The position numbers were made by a program, and so were the translations under genes. Source: an uncultured Acidimicrobiales bacterium (GTDB taxonomy: Bacteria > Actinomycetota > Acidimicrobiia > Acidimicrobiales > SZUA-35). From it: a stretch of DNA of 64,000 nucleotides. Under the pieces are notes generated by a model. It worked only from the letters and a program-made list of their open reading frames with translations, was not told the DNA's origin and did not search any database. Positions within the stretch are counted from its first letter, which is position 1; every line of letters starts with the position of its first letter. Below are positions 20,432 to 30,144 of this stretch, one piece after another. The stretch lies in contig CAKZXA010000004.1 in NCBI GenBank assembly GCA_937922045.1, forward strand, positions 106,878-170,877. Direction: 5' to 3'.

Positions 20432-20868
20432 TCGACGACGTCGACCGAGAGCTGATCCGCCATCTCCAAAGCGACGGCCGACTGGCATTCTCCACACTCG
20501 GCCAGCTCGTCGGGTTATCGGATGCTGCGGCCCGCCAAAGGGTGCGGCGATTGTGCTCGATGGGTGTGATCGACATCGTCGCCGTCACCGATCCGCGCAA
20601 GTTGGGGCTTGGCTATCAAGCCATGATCGGCCTCAAGGTGACGGGTGATAGCCAGAAGATCGCCAACGAGATCGGCTCCTTCAAGGAGTCGCACTATGTG
20701 GTGATAACCGCCGGCCGCCACGACATCCTGGCCGAGGTCGTTTGCACCAACGCCGACGCCCTCCTGACGTTGGCTGACAACGTCCGTTCGATCGATGGCG
20801 TTGAATCGATCGAGGTCACGCCCTATCTTGCCATCACGAAAGAAACCTACGACTGGGGTGCAGGATGA
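20428..20868 (+). CDS. Lrp/AsnC family transcriptional regulator
   Basis: IDDVDRELIRHLQSDGRLAFSTLGQLVGLSDAAARQRVRRL (HTH), then RAM-like domain; overlaps GNAT and agmatinase ORFs (ATGA type). Confidence 0.9.
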   Translation: MIDDVDRELIRHLQSDGRLAFSTLGQLVGLSDAAARQRVRRLCSMGVIDIVAVTDPRKLGLGYQAMIGLKVTGDSQKIANEIGSFKESHYVVITAGRHDILAEVVCTNADALLTLADNVRSIDGVESIEVTPYLAITKETYDWGAG

Positions 20869-21839
20869 CCGAGCCTTTAGAGGGCGATCAAGCCTTCCGC
20901 AGCCCAAGGCTGGAGGGCCGCGACCTTGAGATGACGTTCGCCGGGGCCGTCTCCATGCTTCGTCGCAAGTACACCCGCAACCTCGATGAGGCCGAAATCG
21001 TCATAAGCGGCATTCCCTTCGACATGGCCACCTCCAATCGCCCCGGCGCTCGCTTTGGGCCTCGCGCCATTCGAGCGGCCTCCGTCGGTCTCGCCGAGCT
21101 GAACGCCTACCCCTGGGGTTTCGATCCTTTCGAGTACGTGAGGGTCGCCGACTACGGCGACTGTTTTATCGACTTCGGGCATCCGGAGGAAGCGGTTCGC
21201 CGGATCGAAGCCCATGCCGACACCATCATCGGATCCGACACCATGATGGTGAGTCTCGGAGGGGATCATTTCGTCTCCTATCCCCTCCTGCGAGCCCACG
21301 CCAAGCGCTTCGGTCCCTTGTCACTCATCCATTTCGATGCCCACAGCGATACGTGGGATGACGACGGAGACCGGCTCGACCATGGGTCCATGTTTTTGCG
21401 AGCGGCCCGCGAGGGCATCATCGACCCGGCTACCTCGATCCAGATCGGCATCCGCACCTACAACTCAAAGACCCACGGCTTCACGATCGTTGGCGCACCC
21501 TGGGTGCACCGGGAGGGCATCGGAGCGGTGCTGGACAAGATCGACGAGGTCGTCGGCACCAACAAGGCCTACCTCACCTTCGACATCGACTGCCTCGACC
21601 CCGCCTTTGCCCCCGGTACTGGCACACCTGTAGTAGGCGGATTGAGTTCGGCCCAGGCGTTGGAAGCCATCCGGGGTCTAGGCCATCTCGACATCGTCGG
21701 GATGGATGTGGTTGAGGTTGCTCCCGCTTACGATGTATCCGAGATCACGGCCACTGCGGCGGCCACACTCGTACACGATTTCATTTGTCTGCAAGCTCTC
21801 AAGCTCGGCGCTACCTCTGAGCCTTACGGACTGCAATAG
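20865..21839 (+). CDS. speB: Agmatinase/arginase-family ureohydrolase
   Basis: SLGGDHFVSYPLL, IHFDAHSDTWDDDG, LTFDIDCLDPAFAPGTGTPVVGG, DVVEVAPAYD. Confidence 0.87.
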   Translation: MTEPLEGDQAFRSPRLEGRDLEMTFAGAVSMLRRKYTRNLDEAEIVISGIPFDMATSNRPGARFGPRAIRAASVGLAELNAYPWGFDPFEYVRVADYGDCFIDFGHPEEAVRRIEAHADTIIGSDTMMVSLGGDHFVSYPLLRAHAKRFGPLSLIHFDAHSDTWDDDGDRLDHGSMFLRAAREGIIDPATSIQIGIRTYNSKTHGFTIVGAPWVHREGIGAVLDKIDEVVGTNKAYLTFDIDCLDPAFAPGTGTPVVGGLSSAQALEAIRGLGHLDIVGMDVVEVAPAYDVSEITATAAATLVHDFICLQALKLGATSEPYGLQ

Positions 21840-21841
21840 GT

Positions 21842-21858
21842 TCTTCGCAGAGCGAAGA
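21842..21858 (+). promoter_or_regulatory. Small hairpin TCTTCGC-AGA-GCGAAGA between ureohydrolase and potA-like gene
   Basis: Perfect 7-bp stem, triloop. Confidence 0.45.
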
Positions 21859-21890
21859 GTCTTTCCAACTATCCCAGAGGGGGAATCTGG

Positions 21891-22994
21891 ATGGGAGAAA
21901 CCCGAGACGCCCACGAGACGACGACGGCCGCCGACGCAGTCGCCATCAGTGGCGTCACGAAACGTTTTGGCGATGTTGTTGCCGTAGACAACATCGATCT
22001 AAACATCGCGGACGGTGAATTCTTCGCCATGCTCGGCCCCTCGGGCTGCGGCAAGACGACCACCTTGCGCATGATTGCCGGTCTTGAGTTCCCGACCCAG
22101 GGCAGCCTGAAGATTTTCGGCGACGAGGTCGGCACCTTGCCGCCGAACAAGCGACCGGTCAACACGGTGTTTCAGAACTACGCCCTGTTCCCCCATATGA
22201 ACGTGCTCGACAATGTGAGCTTCGGCCTGCGCATGCAGAACGTTGGCCGGTCTGAGGCCGCCGACCGGGCCCGGGCCCTTATCAAGCTGGTGCAGTTGGA
22301 AGGCATGGAGCGGCGCAAACCGTCGCAGCTCTCCGGTGGCCAGCAACAGCGAGTCGCCCTGGCTCGCGCCCTGGTCAACAAGCCAAAGGTTCTCCTCCTC
22401 GACGAGCCGCTTGGTGCCCTCGACCTCAAACTCCGCCAGGAGATGCAAAACGAGCTCAAGAGCCTCCAACGCGAACTCGGTGTCAGCTTCGTGTTCGTCA
22501 CCCACGACCAGGAGGAAGCGCTAACGATGAGCGACCGCATTGCGGTCATGGAAGACGGGCGTCTCCTCCAGGTTGGCTCGGCCGAAGACCTCTACGAGCG
22601 GCCGGCCAACCGGTTCGTCGCCGACTTCATCGGCCAGACAAACCTCGTCGACGCCACCGTCGCCGACAGCGACACGATCGTTCTGGGCAACGGATCGAAG
22701 GTTCGGGCCACCACCTCGCTCGGCTCAGGTTCCAAGGTGGCGATGAGTTTGCGACCAGAGGCGATCAGTATCGGACCACGAGGGTCGGCTCCCGCCGACC
22801 ACAGCGAAGAATCGCTCGACGGCATCGTCTCGTCGTCCACCTATCTCGGACACGCCGTCGACTATCGGGTCTCGGTCGACTGGATCGACCTTGAGGTTCG
22901 GGCCGGGGCGATTGGCGCACAGCAGCGATTCAGCCCCGGCGATGAGGTATCACTGTGGTGGGATCGGGCCGCCAACTGGGTGGTAGCCGACTAG
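21891..22994 (+). CDS. potA: Spermidine/putrescine ABC transporter ATP-binding protein
   Basis: Walker A GPSGCGKTT, signature LSGGQQQRVALARAL, Walker B VLLLDEPLGALD; TOBE-like C-terminus; in a pot operon. Confidence 0.92.
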   Translation: MGETRDAHETTTAADAVAISGVTKRFGDVVAVDNIDLNIADGEFFAMLGPSGCGKTTTLRMIAGLEFPTQGSLKIFGDEVGTLPPNKRPVNTVFQNYALFPHMNVLDNVSFGLRMQNVGRSEAADRARALIKLVQLEGMERRKPSQLSGGQQQRVALARALVNKPKVLLLDEPLGALDLKLRQEMQNELKSLQRELGVSFVFVTHDQEEALTMSDRIAVMEDGRLLQVGSAEDLYERPANRFVADFIGQTNLVDATVADSDTIVLGNGSKVRATTSLGSGSKVAMSLRPEAISIGPRGSAPADHSEESLDGIVSSSTYLGHAVDYRVSVDWIDLEVRAGAIGAQQRFSPGDEVSLWWDRAANWVVAD

Positions 22995-23908
22995 TGACCG
23001 CCGCGACCGAAGCTCTCACCGATCCAGCGCTCGAGGCAGCCGTCGCTACACCCGAGTTCGAGTTGGCCAATATCCGTCAACGAAAACGACGGGGGCTGCT
23101 GATAGCTCTGCCCGCCTACATCTACCTGCTCATCTTCTTCGCGGTCCCGCTGATCACCGTGATCATCTATTCGTTCGCCACCCGCAACCGTTTCGGCGGA
23201 GCCGATCTCAACAACTGGAACATCGACTCCTACCGGGAGCTCGGCGATGATCTGATCAGAACAATCCTGCTGCGTTCGGCGGGGCTGGCCATACTCACAA
23301 CCATCATCTGTCTGCTCATCTCCTACCCCTTCGCCTACTACATGGCGACCCGGTCCGAGAAGGTGCGCAACCTGATGTTGGTGTTCGTGATGATCCCGTT
23401 CTGGACCAACTTTCTGGTTCGCAACTACGCCTGGTACGTGATCCTCGGCACCGACGGACCCTTCAGCCAGTTCACCGAATTCATCGGTTTTGGCCCGACC
23501 CGAGTGCTCTTCACCCAGGTCGCCGTAGTGCTCGGCCTCGTCTACGGCTTCCTGCCCTTCATGATTCTCCCCCTCTACGCCTCGATCGAACGAATCGATG
23601 GACGGCTTATCGAAGCCTCCAGAGACCTCTACGCCAACGGCTGGCAGGCGTTCAGAAACGTGCTCTGGCCTCTCTCCTTGCCGGGCGTTGTGGCCGGTTC
23701 CATTCTGGTCTTCATTCCCTCCTTAGGCGCCTACGTCACACCCCACATCCTGGGTGGAACGAAAGGCACGCTTCTGGGTAGCTACATCGTGACCCAGTTC
23801 CTGACGGCAAGAAACCTTCCCTTCGGTGCCGCCATGTCGACGGTCCTGATGATCATCATGTTGGCCGCGACCATCCTCTATTTCCGAAAGGGAGGTCGAA
23901 CCCTATGA
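22994..23908 (+). CDS. potB: Spermidine/putrescine ABC transporter permease
   Basis: EASRDLYANGWQAFRNVLWPLSLPGVVAGS EAA loop; GTG start overlaps the potA stop (TAGTG). Confidence 0.9.
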   Translation: MTAATEALTDPALEAAVATPEFELANIRQRKRRGLLIALPAYIYLLIFFAVPLITVIIYSFATRNRFGGADLNNWNIDSYRELGDDLIRTILLRSAGLAILTTIICLLISYPFAYYMATRSEKVRNLMLVFVMIPFWTNFLVRNYAWYVILGTDGPFSQFTEFIGFGPTRVLFTQVAVVLGLVYGFLPFMILPLYASIERIDGRLIEASRDLYANGWQAFRNVLWPLSLPGVVAGSILVFIPSLGAYVTPHILGGTKGTLLGSYIVTQFLTARNLPFGAAMSTVLMIIMLAATILYFRKGGRTL

Positions 23909-23970
23909 TCCTCGACGCTCTGCCGGAGGCAACGCTGCATACCTACGCTCTGCCGGAGGCAACGCTGTGA
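23905..23970 (+). CDS. 21-codon mini-ORF MILDALPEATLHTYALPEATL, coupled between potB and potC
   Basis: ATGA overlap with the potB stop and GTGA overlap with the potC start; contains a 30-bp-period duplication. Confidence 0.4.
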   Translation: MILDALPEATLHTYALPEATL

Positions 23971-24785
23971 CCGGCATAACCGAACCACGCGGCATGACGA
24001 AGGCTTCGCTACGAGGTATCAGCTGGCTGGTCTACGTCTTCTTCTACGCACCGATTCTGGTGCTGATCATTTTCTCCTTCAGCGACAACCGAAATGTCGG
24101 TGTTTGGGGTGGCTTTACCACCTCCTGGTACGCCGACTTCGCCCAGGACTCCAAGCTCACAGGCGCCTTGTCGAATTCGCTCCAGATCGCCGTCGTCGCC
24201 ACCTTGATCTCAGTCGTGCTCGGCACGATGGCCGCACTGGCACTCGAACGATTCTCGTTTAGGGGCAAGCAGGTCTTTGACGCCCTGCTCTACCTGCCGG
24301 TCATCATTCCCGACGTGACCATGGCCGTCATGCTCCTCCTCTTCTTCACCCAGGCGGCCAAATGGTTTGGTTTCTCCAAGGGTTTCAGCACGATCGCCCT
24401 CAGCCACATCGCCTTCTGCATTAGCTTCGTCTCCATCGTCGTACGGGCTCGCCTGGCGGGGATGGACGACAAGCTGGAGGAAGCGGCCATGGACCTGTAC
24501 GCTTCCCGATGGCAGGCATTTCGCTATGTCACGCTTCCGCTCATCATGCCCGGTATTCTCGGCGGTGCGCTCCTGGCTATGACCTTGTCGCTCGACGACG
24601 TGGTAATAACCCAGTTCGTGACAGGGGCCGGCTGGAGCACCTTGCCGGTCTATGTCTTCAGTCTCATTCGCAAAGGGGTGACACCTCTCATAAACGCCGT
24701 TTCGGTCGTGATGCTCGTAGCCTCAATGGTCCTCGTCGCACTCTCACTACTGACTCAACGGCTACGAGGTGACGACCCGGCGTAA
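23967..24785 (+). CDS. potC: Spermidine/putrescine ABC transporter permease
   Basis: EEAAMDLYASRWQAFRYVTLPLIMPGILGGALLAMTLSLDDVVITQF, characteristic of PotC/PotI. Confidence 0.9.
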   Translation: MTGITEPRGMTKASLRGISWLVYVFFYAPILVLIIFSFSDNRNVGVWGGFTTSWYADFAQDSKLTGALSNSLQIAVVATLISVVLGTMAALALERFSFRGKQVFDALLYLPVIIPDVTMAVMLLLFFTQAAKWFGFSKGFSTIALSHIAFCISFVSIVVRARLAGMDDKLEEAAMDLYASRWQAFRYVTLPLIMPGILGGALLAMTLSLDDVVITQFVTGAGWSTLPVYVFSLIRKGVTPLINAVSVVMLVASMVLVALSLLTQRLRGDDPA

Positions 24786-24862
24786 CGGTTCGGCGACACC
24801 GCCCTGCTTCGTAGGGCCGCCGCCGACCACATCCAAGAAAGAACCCAAAGGGGAGAGAACAA

Positions 24863-25981
24863 ATGGCAACGAAACAAACCAGGTGGGCGGCACTACTTGC
24901 TGCGCTCGCCCTCCTATTCTCAGCGTGTGGCGACGGTGAGGGCGGCGGAGGCGAATCCAGCGCTGCTAGCGCCGCCTGTGAAGTCGGGCAGGTCGACGGC
25001 GACCTGGCGCTTTATAACTGGGCCGAATACATCGACCCTGAACAACTCGACGCCTTCGGCCAGGAGTTTGGTATAGGCGCAACGATGACCGAGTATGACT
25101 CGAACGAGGCCATGCTGCCGGTGGTAAGCGCCGGCAACTCGGGCTACGACGTCATCATTCCCTCCGACTACATGGTTGGCATCATGATCGACGGCGAGTT
25201 CATCCAGCCGCTCAACTTCGATGCAATTCCCAACGCCTCGAACATCTCCGATGACTTCGCCAACCCTTCCTACGATCCGAACCAGAGCCACTCGGTTCCC
25301 TACCAGTGGGGCTACACAGGCCTGGCGGTTGATACCGCCGTCGTCGGCACCGATTTCCCTCGTACCTGGGACCTGGTCTTCGGCGATTCCGTTCCGGCCG
25401 ATGCAGCGGGCAAGGTGACCCTGCTCAACGACCCCCGCGAAACGATGGGGGCCGCTTTGAAAGCACTTGGCTACTCGCTGAACACCACCGATGACGCCCA
25501 ACTCGACGAGGCCCGGAACCTGGTGAGCGGCTCGAAGGAAAACGTTCTTCGCTTCGATACCGACTCAGCCGACGAGCTCCTAACCTCTGGAGAATCAGCC
25601 ATCGCCCACGGCTACTCAGGCGACATGTTCACCCAGTTCTTGGAGACCGACGACCCCAGCCGCTACGTGTTCTTCGTACCTGAAGAGGGCGGCACTCGCT
25701 GGATCGACAACATGGCGATCCCCTTCGATGCTCCGCACCCCTGCACCGCCCACACCTTCATCAACTGGTTGCTCGACGCCGAGCAGGGCGCGGCGCTTTC
25801 GAACTGGAACTACTACGGAACCCCGAACAAGGCCGCCATCGATCTGCTAGACGATGAGCTCAACGAATTCCTCACCGACCCGAGCGTGCTGCCCGGTGGC
25901 TTGAGTTCCGTCGAGTCGATCGCCGATACCGGCGACTTCGAAACCAACTACACCGACGCCTTCACCGAGGCTGTCGGCTAG
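24863..25981 (+). CDS. potD: Polyamine ABC transporter substrate-binding lipoprotein
   Basis: Lipobox LLFSAC; LALYNWAEYIDPEQLDAFGQEFG, YDVIIPSDYMVGIMI, VPYQWGYTGLAVD. Confidence 0.9.
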   Translation: MATKQTRWAALLAALALLFSACGDGEGGGGESSAASAACEVGQVDGDLALYNWAEYIDPEQLDAFGQEFGIGATMTEYDSNEAMLPVVSAGNSGYDVIIPSDYMVGIMIDGEFIQPLNFDAIPNASNISDDFANPSYDPNQSHSVPYQWGYTGLAVDTAVVGTDFPRTWDLVFGDSVPADAAGKVTLLNDPRETMGAALKALGYSLNTTDDAQLDEARNLVSGSKENVLRFDTDSADELLTSGESAIAHGYSGDMFTQFLETDDPSRYVFFVPEEGGTRWIDNMAIPFDAPHPCTAHTFINWLLDAEQGAALSNWNYYGTPNKAAIDLLDDELNEFLTDPSVLPGGLSSVESIADTGDFETNYTDAFTEAVG

Positions 25982-27069: not shown

Positions 27070-28167
27070 TTAGAGCTCTATTTCGCGGTAGTAGGTTGAG
27101 GCACCGCGTTGACGAATCTCGCTCAACCAATCGGATTCGTAGGGCCATTCACGGCCTTCGACCGGGCCCTGCCAGAAACGGGCGAGCGGGCCCTCTACCC
27201 CACCCTCGATACTCCACGCTTGACGCTTGTAGGTCCAGTTGTCGGGAGCGAGCCGGTGGGCTTCGGCGAAGTGATGAATCGCCTCACTATGCTTTCCTCC
27301 GGTCTCCAGACGTTCTGCGATAGCGAAATGCGCCGCCGCTCTCGATGTCTTAAGCGTTCGTTCGCCCGATCGGGCCAGAACCTGCTCAGACGACAAGACG
27401 AAGCGACTAGAGGCACCGTTGCGGGCCCAGTCGCGAATCGCATCGGCGTACCCGTCGGCGGTCCAGGCCACAATCTTTGAGGCCTCTTCCATGATGTCGG
27501 CCACCCTGGGGGGCAGCTCGTCGTCGCCACCGAGGCTTCGGCTCGCGTCGCGAGGGGCGGGCCAGCCTGGTTCGGCGGGTCGCACGATTTGGCCAGACTC
27601 ATCAATCCAGACACAGTTCGGAATGTTCACCACACCGAATCGTTCAGCCATCAGATGGCCGGTATCGAGCAAGCAAGGATGTTCCGCTTTGGACGCTTCG
27701 ATATAGGGACGGCCTTCGTCGGGCCCCAGAGATTCAAGACATACCGTCACGATTTCGACGCCAAGACCATGGACTTCGTTGCGCAATGCCTGCCACCCGG
27801 GCAGGTCCCTCGCGCAACCTCAATAGGGAGCCCAGGCCACCAAAACAACGCGCTGGCCACGTAGCGATCGCAGGTCGAAGTCGTCACCGTCGAACGTTGG
27901 TAGCACCAGATCGGGGCATGCCGTGCTGGAAAGGGCCGACCCAGCAAAGGTAGCGGGGCCAACAGCCACGAGGCCTGCATCAGCGTCCTCGACGACCGCC
28001 ATGCCTAGGCGGTCGGCGGCAAGCGTGAGGTCTACTCGCCCATCGTTCAAGGTACCCGGTGCTAGGGGGACGCAAAGCTCACCCTGGCATGCGCCACGCT
28101 GCTCGATCGTCCATGACGTCGCCGCCGCAAAGTCTTGGACGGTGGGATTCTTGTCAGCCAACAACAC
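27070..28167 (-). CDS. Candidate selenoprotein: TlpA/redoxin-like protein with in-frame TGA (27820-27822) at the active site and TPR-like C-terminus
   Basis: ORFs 27820..28167 and 27070..27786 share one frame, with no stop between them except TGA: ...RGQRVVLVAWAPY(U)GCARDLPGWQALRNEV...NIPNCVWIDESGQI... SECIS-like hairpin directly downstream. GTG 28167 lies 2 nt after the upstream ATPase stop. Confidence 0.72.
27778..27818 (-). promoter_or_regulatory. Putative bacterial SECIS element
   Basis: GUUGCGC-GAGGGA-CCUGCC-CGGGU-GGCAGG-CAUU-GCGCAAC: 7-bp lower and 6-bp upper perfect stems, GG in the apical loop 22-23 nt after UGA. Confidence 0.65.
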
Positions 28168-28169
28168 GG

Positions 28170-29177
28170 TCAGACTCCGATCTCAACCGGGGTTTCCGGA
28201 TAGTGGCACGCTACCTGATGACCGGGCGTGATCTCCTCAAGGGGCGGCTCGTCGGTGCGGCAGATGTCGGCAACCTTCCAGCACCTCGTGTGGAAACGAC
28301 ACCCGCCCGGAGGGTTCGAAGGGCTGGGAACGTCACCTTTGAGCATGATGCGCTCACCCCTGACGTGCTTGCGCGACGCCGGTACGGGAACGGCCGACAA
28401 CAGAGCCTTGGTGTAAGGGTGGGCCGGGCTTTCATACACGTCGGCACCGGCGCCGAACTCAACGATCTTGCCGAGGTACATGACTGCGACCCGATCCGAG
28501 ATATGCCGTACGACCGACAGATCGTGGGCGATAAAGAGGTAGGACAGCCCGAGCTCGTTCTGAAGATCCTCAAGAAGATTCACGACCTGGGCCTGAACCG
28601 ACACATCAAGAGCCGAGACAGGCTCATCGGCGATAATCAACGTTGGTTCCAAAGCGAGGGCACGGGCAATACCTATCCGTTGACGTTGACCACCCGAAAA
28701 CTGATGGGGATAGCGATTCACGTAGTTGGGGTTGAGGCCAACGACCTCGAGCAGCTCCTGAACCTTGGTCCGGTGCTTCGACTCGTCGACCACCCCTGGA
28801 TGGATATGCCAGGCTTCGGCGATGATGTTGTTCACCGTCATACGCGGGTTGAGCGAGGCATAGGGATCCTGGAAGACGACCTGCATGTCGCGCCGGGCCG
28901 CCCGAACATCAGACATGTCGGCCCCAACCAACTCCCTACCGAGAAACCGAACCGAGCCGGACGTCGCCTTCTCCAACCCAAGAACCGTGCGGGCCGTCGT
29001 CGATTTGCCACACCCTGATTCGCCGACCAGGCCAACGGTTTCGCCCCGGGCAACATCGAAACTCACACCGTCGACCGCCTGCACCTGGCCGACGGTTCGA
29101 CGCAGAACCCCCTTGGTGACGGGGAAATGCTTGACCAGGTTCGCTACCTCAAGAATGGGTTCACTCACCGAACGCAT
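28170..29177 (-). CDS. Peptide ABC transporter ATP-binding protein (DppF/OppF type)
   Basis: [51 protein letters not shown], oligopeptide C-terminal CRFHTRC. Start ATG 29177 or GTG 29168. Confidence 0.9.
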
Positions 29178-30144
29178 CCCTCCAGTGGTGACATGCAGTA
29201 GACCGGCCCGAGTCGCCAACAAATTCAAGCGTCGGTTCGACCTCGGCACAATCCGGCTGCTGATACGGGCAGCGGGGCCGGAAGGCACAGCCCGAGGGGA
29301 TTCTGAGCAGATCCGGTGGGTTCCCTCTGATGGGATTCAGGCGCTCATTGAGATCATCGAGACGCGGTATCGAGTTCATCAACCCCTCGGTATAAGGATG
29401 GTGAGGCTGATCGAAGATCTCGTCGATCGTGCCTTTCTCCATTGCCCGCCCCGCATACATCACCACAACTCGATCGGCCTGCTCAGCTACCACCCCGAGA
29501 TCGTGGGTGATCAGGACGAGACCCATGCCAAACTCGGCCTGCACGTTTTCGAGCAACTGCATGACCTGGGCCTGCACGGTGACATCGAGGGCGGTTGTCG
29601 GCTCATCGGCGATGAGCACGTCTGGATCCAAGGCCAGGGCCATCGCAATCATGACCCTCTGTCGCATGCCACCGGAGAACTCGTGCGGAAACGATCGATA
29701 CCGATTCGTCGCGTCGGGGATCTCGACCAACTCCATGAGTTCAACGGCGCTCTTCTTCGCCTCCTTCTTGGAGGCACCCCGGTGTTTGCGGAACATCTCG
29801 GAAATCTGCCAGCCAACCGAAAAGACCGGGTTCAGCGCTGAGAGAGCGTCCTGGAAGACCATGGCGATATCGGCGCCCCGAACCTTGCGGCGCTCGTCCT
29901 CAGCCATCGTCAGCAACTCACGACCCTCGAATCGCACCGAGCCTTTCGTGATGAAACCGGGCGGCGACGCAATCAGGCCCATGATGGCCTGGGCGCTCAC
30001 GCTCTTACCGCTACCGCTCTCACCGAGAATGGCCACGGTTTCTCGCCGATCGACCATGTACGACAAGCCGTTGACGGCACGCACCACACCGTCGTCGGTT
30101 CGGAACTCGACGTGTAGATCGTCGACGACGAGTAGGGGATCCAT
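29161..30144 (-). CDS. Peptide ABC transporter ATP-binding protein (DppD/OppD type)
   Basis: [61 protein letters not shown]. Start ATG 30144. Confidence 0.9.

Follow-up and report, generated by a model that had tools for sequence, protein, structure and literature searches.

Selenoproteins that carry a U-G-C motif (U, selenocysteine) in a peroxiredoxin-like or TlpA-like protein were reported in 2008 from ocean metagenomes (GOS survey, 46 sequences; PMC2398784), and a 'UGC-containing TlpA disulfide reductase family protein' is included in a 2026 review (PMC13188914). The NCBIfam model NF041054.1 (WAxxUGC_long), with a curated cut-off of 300 bits for the whole-protein score, describes exactly such proteins. 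Its name, 'ResA-like WAxxUGC motif-containing protein', shows that the curators took the TGA codon as selenocysteine (Sec). The UGC-containing Prx-like proteins of the GOS survey and the TlpA entry of the review are likely the same family as NF041054, matched by motif and Pfam family.

The window analysed here is the whole stretch of 64,000 nucleotides from an uncultured Acidimicrobiales bacterium, and the gene under study in it is a real selenoprotein gene. It had been predicted as a candidate new selenoprotein; the selenoprotein part of this claim stands, while the protein is a fresh member of NF041054 and not a new family, since NF041054 describes exactly such proteins and the UGC-containing Prx/TlpA selenoproteins were already known in 2008 (PMC2398784, PMC13188914). 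We put the probability that the TGA gene encodes a selenoprotein of the NF041054 (WAxxUGC) family at about 95%, judging from the Sec machinery in the genome, the UGA and Cys homologs, and a hairpin with RNA-level constraint and compensatory changes. With the GOS proteins (PMC2398784) and the TlpA entry (PMC13188914) the gene has in common the motif, the Pfam family (pfam00578) and the known Sec/Cys pair.

Two minus-strand open reading frames (ORFs) lie in one frame, and the TGA at 27822-27820 is their sole separator. When the frame was re-read, the coordinates, the shared frame and the single TGA of the original prediction all proved right. The gene (27070..28167, minus strand) runs from a GTG start at 28167 to a TAA terminator at 27072-27070, and its readthrough product has 365 amino acids and no other stop. 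A GGAG read directly from the sequence 7 nt before the GTG (28175..28178, minus strand) is a probable ribosome-binding site. The readthrough motif at the TGA is W-A-P-Y-U-G-C, where the TGA (27820..27822, minus strand) is read as Sec116, position 1 of the U-G-C centre, and is followed by Cys118 (27814..27816, minus strand), its partner, which is invariant in 38/38 aligned homologs. By a naive estimate, the chance that an ORF of 238 codons follows a same-frame stop is about 0.003 per stop. In a profile search the readthrough protein scored 443 bits against NF041054.1 over residues 2-364, straight through the TGA; it thus lies above 300 bits and carries the WAxxUGC motif with a TGA-encoded U. 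The match is full-length, motif and architecture are shared, and nothing sets the gene apart from the family, although it has WAPY before the U where WASW is commoner. Because the family model is unbroken over residues 2-364 and the one in-frame TGA of more than 60 homologs falls on this very codon, conservation settles, at the level of sequence, that the two ORFs form one gene. A standard gene caller would mis-annotate this selenoprotein gene as two fragments.

Relatives were collected from 198 genomes of the class; a scan of genome contigs with the single window protein had given one relative only. Nearly all strong matches in the 198 genomes hold exactly one internal TGA, and in every match examined this TGA corresponds to U in the motif W[A/S]xxUGC or FxxWUGC. 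Where Sec116 stands, each homolog examined that covers the motif shows UGA or a codon for Cys, the alignment that the original prediction had named as a check: more than 60 have UGA, and seven (L068, L073, L076, L078, L082, L084 and L085) have TGC or TGT. L068, whose genome lacks selA, nests in the tree within the UGA forms of the genus to which it belongs, and it is a clear case of a Sec/Cys switch. The occurrence of Cys homologs, together with the two truncated ORFs that a standard caller gives, could also suit a pseudogene, in which mutation of a Cys codon (TGC/TGT) produced a genuine stop and left two dead fragments. Against this, more than 60 homologs of many genera share the TGA, nearly all without any other stop; the hairpin behind it is conserved and shows compensatory changes, and the surrounding codons show selection at the RNA level. 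A pseudogene is extremely improbable and was rejected, being refuted by the conservation of the TGA and the hairpin. A second WAxxUGC_long gene is present in the same genome on another contig (L050:6517-7671; G000:C76:40555-41667). It belongs to a clade distinct from that of the window copy, and adjoins an ORF which, from reading its sequence, resembles an IS110-type transposase.

The bacterial SECIS model comprises a stem of 4-16 bp, a loop of 3-9 nt with G in one of the first two places, a distance of 16-37 nt from the UGA and a minimum free energy of at most -7.5 (PMC13188914). At 27789..27805 (minus strand), 17-33 nt past the T of the TGA, lies the SECIS-like hairpin CCUGCC-CGGGU-GGCAGG, with a stem of 6 bp, a 5-nt loop (CGGGU) 20 nt after the UGA and a free energy of -25.7 kcal/mol (45 nt after the UGA), all within that model. 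Rfam gave no match at the hairpin, which is expected for a bacterial SECIS. The 6-bp stem with an N-G-N-N-U loop recurs after the UGA in a set of 66 distinct UGA genes; all five inner pairs are present in 65 of the 66, and 392/396 pair cells are formed, against 277 at best with one side of the stem shifted by 1-3 nt. The stem overlaps a conserved peptide, L-P-x-W-Q, so the constraint on the protein and that on the RNA need separating. At Leu122 the third codon base is G in 41/41 cases, whereas among the other Leu codons of these genes it is G in 45%, and Gly124 is GGG or GGT in 18/18 and GGC in none of the 18, though GGC is the commonest Gly codon elsewhere (53%); genes are treated as independent in the hairpin and codon p-values, which they are not, so that these p-values are indicative. 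In L117, where the peptide is V-P-V-W-D, the stem reads GGUCCC-GGUCU-GGGACC, with three compensatory double changes that alter the Leu and the Gln of the protein. Constraint at the RNA level is indicated by these codon biases at Leu122 and Gly124 and by the compensatory changes in L117. The Cys forms are relaxed: three stem pairs are lost in 2/7 of them, and residue 124 is Ala or Leu, which no UGA form in that set has. With compensatory changes that alter the protein, the 66-gene set makes an exceptionally clear case for a SECIS element within coding sequence.

The genome of the window (4.88 Mb, 97% complete) was found to contain all four genes that the original prediction had named as a check, selA, selB, selC and selD. 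The selB gene exceeded its cut-off, and selA, oriented the same way, immediately precedes it; tRNA-Sec with anticodon TCA gave 67 bits and selD 360 bits. The selD gene (G000:C14:85125-86042, L017) itself holds one in-frame TGA, so SelD of this genome is probably a selenoprotein as well. Among the genomes compared, selA is present in 25/26 of those with a UGA form versus 1/8 of those with only stop-free forms, seven of these eight being read as Cys forms and G068 being counted from its stop-free frame (Fisher p 1.2e-5, which ignores shared ancestry, treats genes as independent and is therefore indicative). The exceptions are G188, a UGA form without selA in a genome 79% complete, and G162, a Cys form with selA in a genome with 5% contamination. 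The evidence consists of sequence data, which leaves room for the view that the TGA is translated as another amino acid, through an altered code or plain suppression. This is most improbable: TGA serves as an ordinary stop elsewhere in the genome, for example in the upstream ATPase gene, the whole Sec pathway is present, and the residue alternates with Cys and not with Trp or Gly. The Sec reading is thus retained, and the in-frame TGA gene confirms the use of Sec in the genome of the window. For insertion, the hairpin after UGA-116 would recruit SelB with Sec-tRNA, and Sec would be inserted without termination.

The product divides into three parts: at the N-terminus a small beta region with CxxxxC, in the middle a ResA/TlpA-like fold with U-G-C, and at the C-terminus a helical region. 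AlphaFold2, run with an alignment of 38 homologs, gave a model with pLDDT 92.9 and pTM 0.91. The N-terminal pair C27-xxxx-C32 (28072..28089, minus strand) lies on two neighbouring predicted strands (25-28 and 31-33) and is invariant in 38/38. The thioredoxin-fold domain of ResA/TlpA type covers residues 83-196 (27580..27921, minus strand), with Pro183 at the usual place of the cis-Pro; Pfam AhpC-TSA (42.7 bits) and Redoxin match over residues 83-195. A Foldseek search aligned this middle domain best with ResA (1su9_B, E 9.3e-11, TM by target 0.75), followed by StoA, TlpA and DsbE-like structures. The C-terminal region, residues about 220-354 (27106..27510, minus strand), had been called TPR-like; it is indeed helical with good confidence in the predicted model, while a TPR family match falls short (TPR_2, 19.9 bits against the Pfam cut-off of 27). 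Residues invariant in the 38 aligned homologs include C27, C32, U/C116, G117, C118, W125, D168, P183, W247 and R315.

The gene product thus shares the domain fold and the position of the active site with ResA, TlpA and StoA. However, their CxxC is absent and U-G-C (UxC) stands in its place, one residue shorter in the sequence alignment to the solved relatives. The short spacing pointed out in the original prediction is a conserved feature of the family, and the ResA fold together with the UGA/Cys alignment supports the placement of Sec at the first active-site thiol of a ResA/TlpA-type fold. ResA, TlpA and StoA work outside the cytoplasm. In contrast to them, the gene product has extra N- and C-terminal regions and no predicted export signal: its N-terminus has no hydrophobic segment, and neither a signal peptide nor a membrane anchor was found (over the first 60 windows of 19 residues, hydropathy peaks at 1.16).

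Since Sec116 stands where CxxC has its nucleophilic first Cys, it would most likely attack a disulfide of the substrate (or else a peroxide), after which Cys118 would resolve the intermediate as a selenenylsulfide. The most likely role is that of a cytoplasmic selenol/thiol-disulfide reductase with Sec116 as nucleophile and Cys118 as resolver. The main rival on mechanism is a peroxiredoxin-like selenol peroxidase, and it is somewhat unlikely. The Pfam AhpC-TSA and Redoxin matches point to it, and such proteins were named Prx-like in the GOS paper (PMC2398784). On the other hand, the nearest folds are the disulfide reductases ResA, StoA and TlpA, and Sec stands at the place of the first Cys of thioredoxin, whereas Sec-containing peroxiredoxins show TxxU; the residue three before U116 is A113, not the Thr of TxxU/TxxC. 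For the reductase, the invariant N-terminal CxxxxC may be a second redox centre, and C27/C32 may pass electrons to the U-G-C centre. A stand-alone N-terminal partner domain was not found in the same genome, where a search with the N-terminal region returned only the two WAxxUGC copies. That the protein is a two-centre selenoenzyme, in which CxxxxC acts as an internal dithiol and regenerates a strained U-G-C selenenylsulfide, is a tentative proposal to which we give rather low odds. If true, it would be a self-contained cytoplasmic reductase of a type without biochemical characterisation. The invariant second Cys pair makes the chemistry of the family testable.

The homolog set also points to a sister clade within Acidimicrobiia that is missed by the NF041054 cut-off. 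This clade (L073-L089, L117 and others) has both Sec and Cys forms and shares with the gene the N-terminal CxxxxC, the U/C-G-C centre and the hairpin, but it scores at about 160-266 bits and its C-terminal tail is unlike that of the gene. As it falls below the cut-off, each of its UGA genes may be broken into two by standard annotation. Upstream of the sister-clade gene in L074, L077, L080 and L081 (family f28) lie a large membrane protein and a further gene; downstream, in most of the four, there are an acetyltransferase-like gene and an ATP-binding-cassette protein (names given by reading the sequences).

The gene upstream of the selenoprotein gene encodes the ATPase of a peptide ABC transporter (28170..29288, minus strand). 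Its TGA stop (28172-28170), read in the sequence, lies 2 nt before the GTG start, just as predicted. A function tied to the transporter, for example the reduction of imported disulfide peptides, might be suggested by this spacing in the window's genome and by locus L059, where peptide ABC genes lie 3-8 kb away. It is improbable, for the closest orthologs, of the same genus and 63-64% identical, found in two other genomes, have no transporter genes nearby (12 kb for L120; for L121 a contig of 3.6 kb, which is less informative), and no neighbour is conserved across 42 homolog loci beyond small sets of close relatives, leaving none to point to a substrate, electron donor or reaction. All ORFs were compared in this neighbour analysis, as greedy ORF calling gave shadow ORFs in the GC-rich DNA. 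In the window the gene does stand last in a peptide ABC operon, as had been proposed; this position is not conserved among the same-genus orthologs, which lack the ATPase gene beside them within the stretches read, and the functional link is not supported. Co-transcription with the peptide transporter is plausible and gives no clue to function. Elsewhere in the window, at 20865-25981, the ORF list shows an agmatinase-like gene and, after it, genes for a polyamine-type ABC transporter: an ATPase, two permeases and a binding protein.
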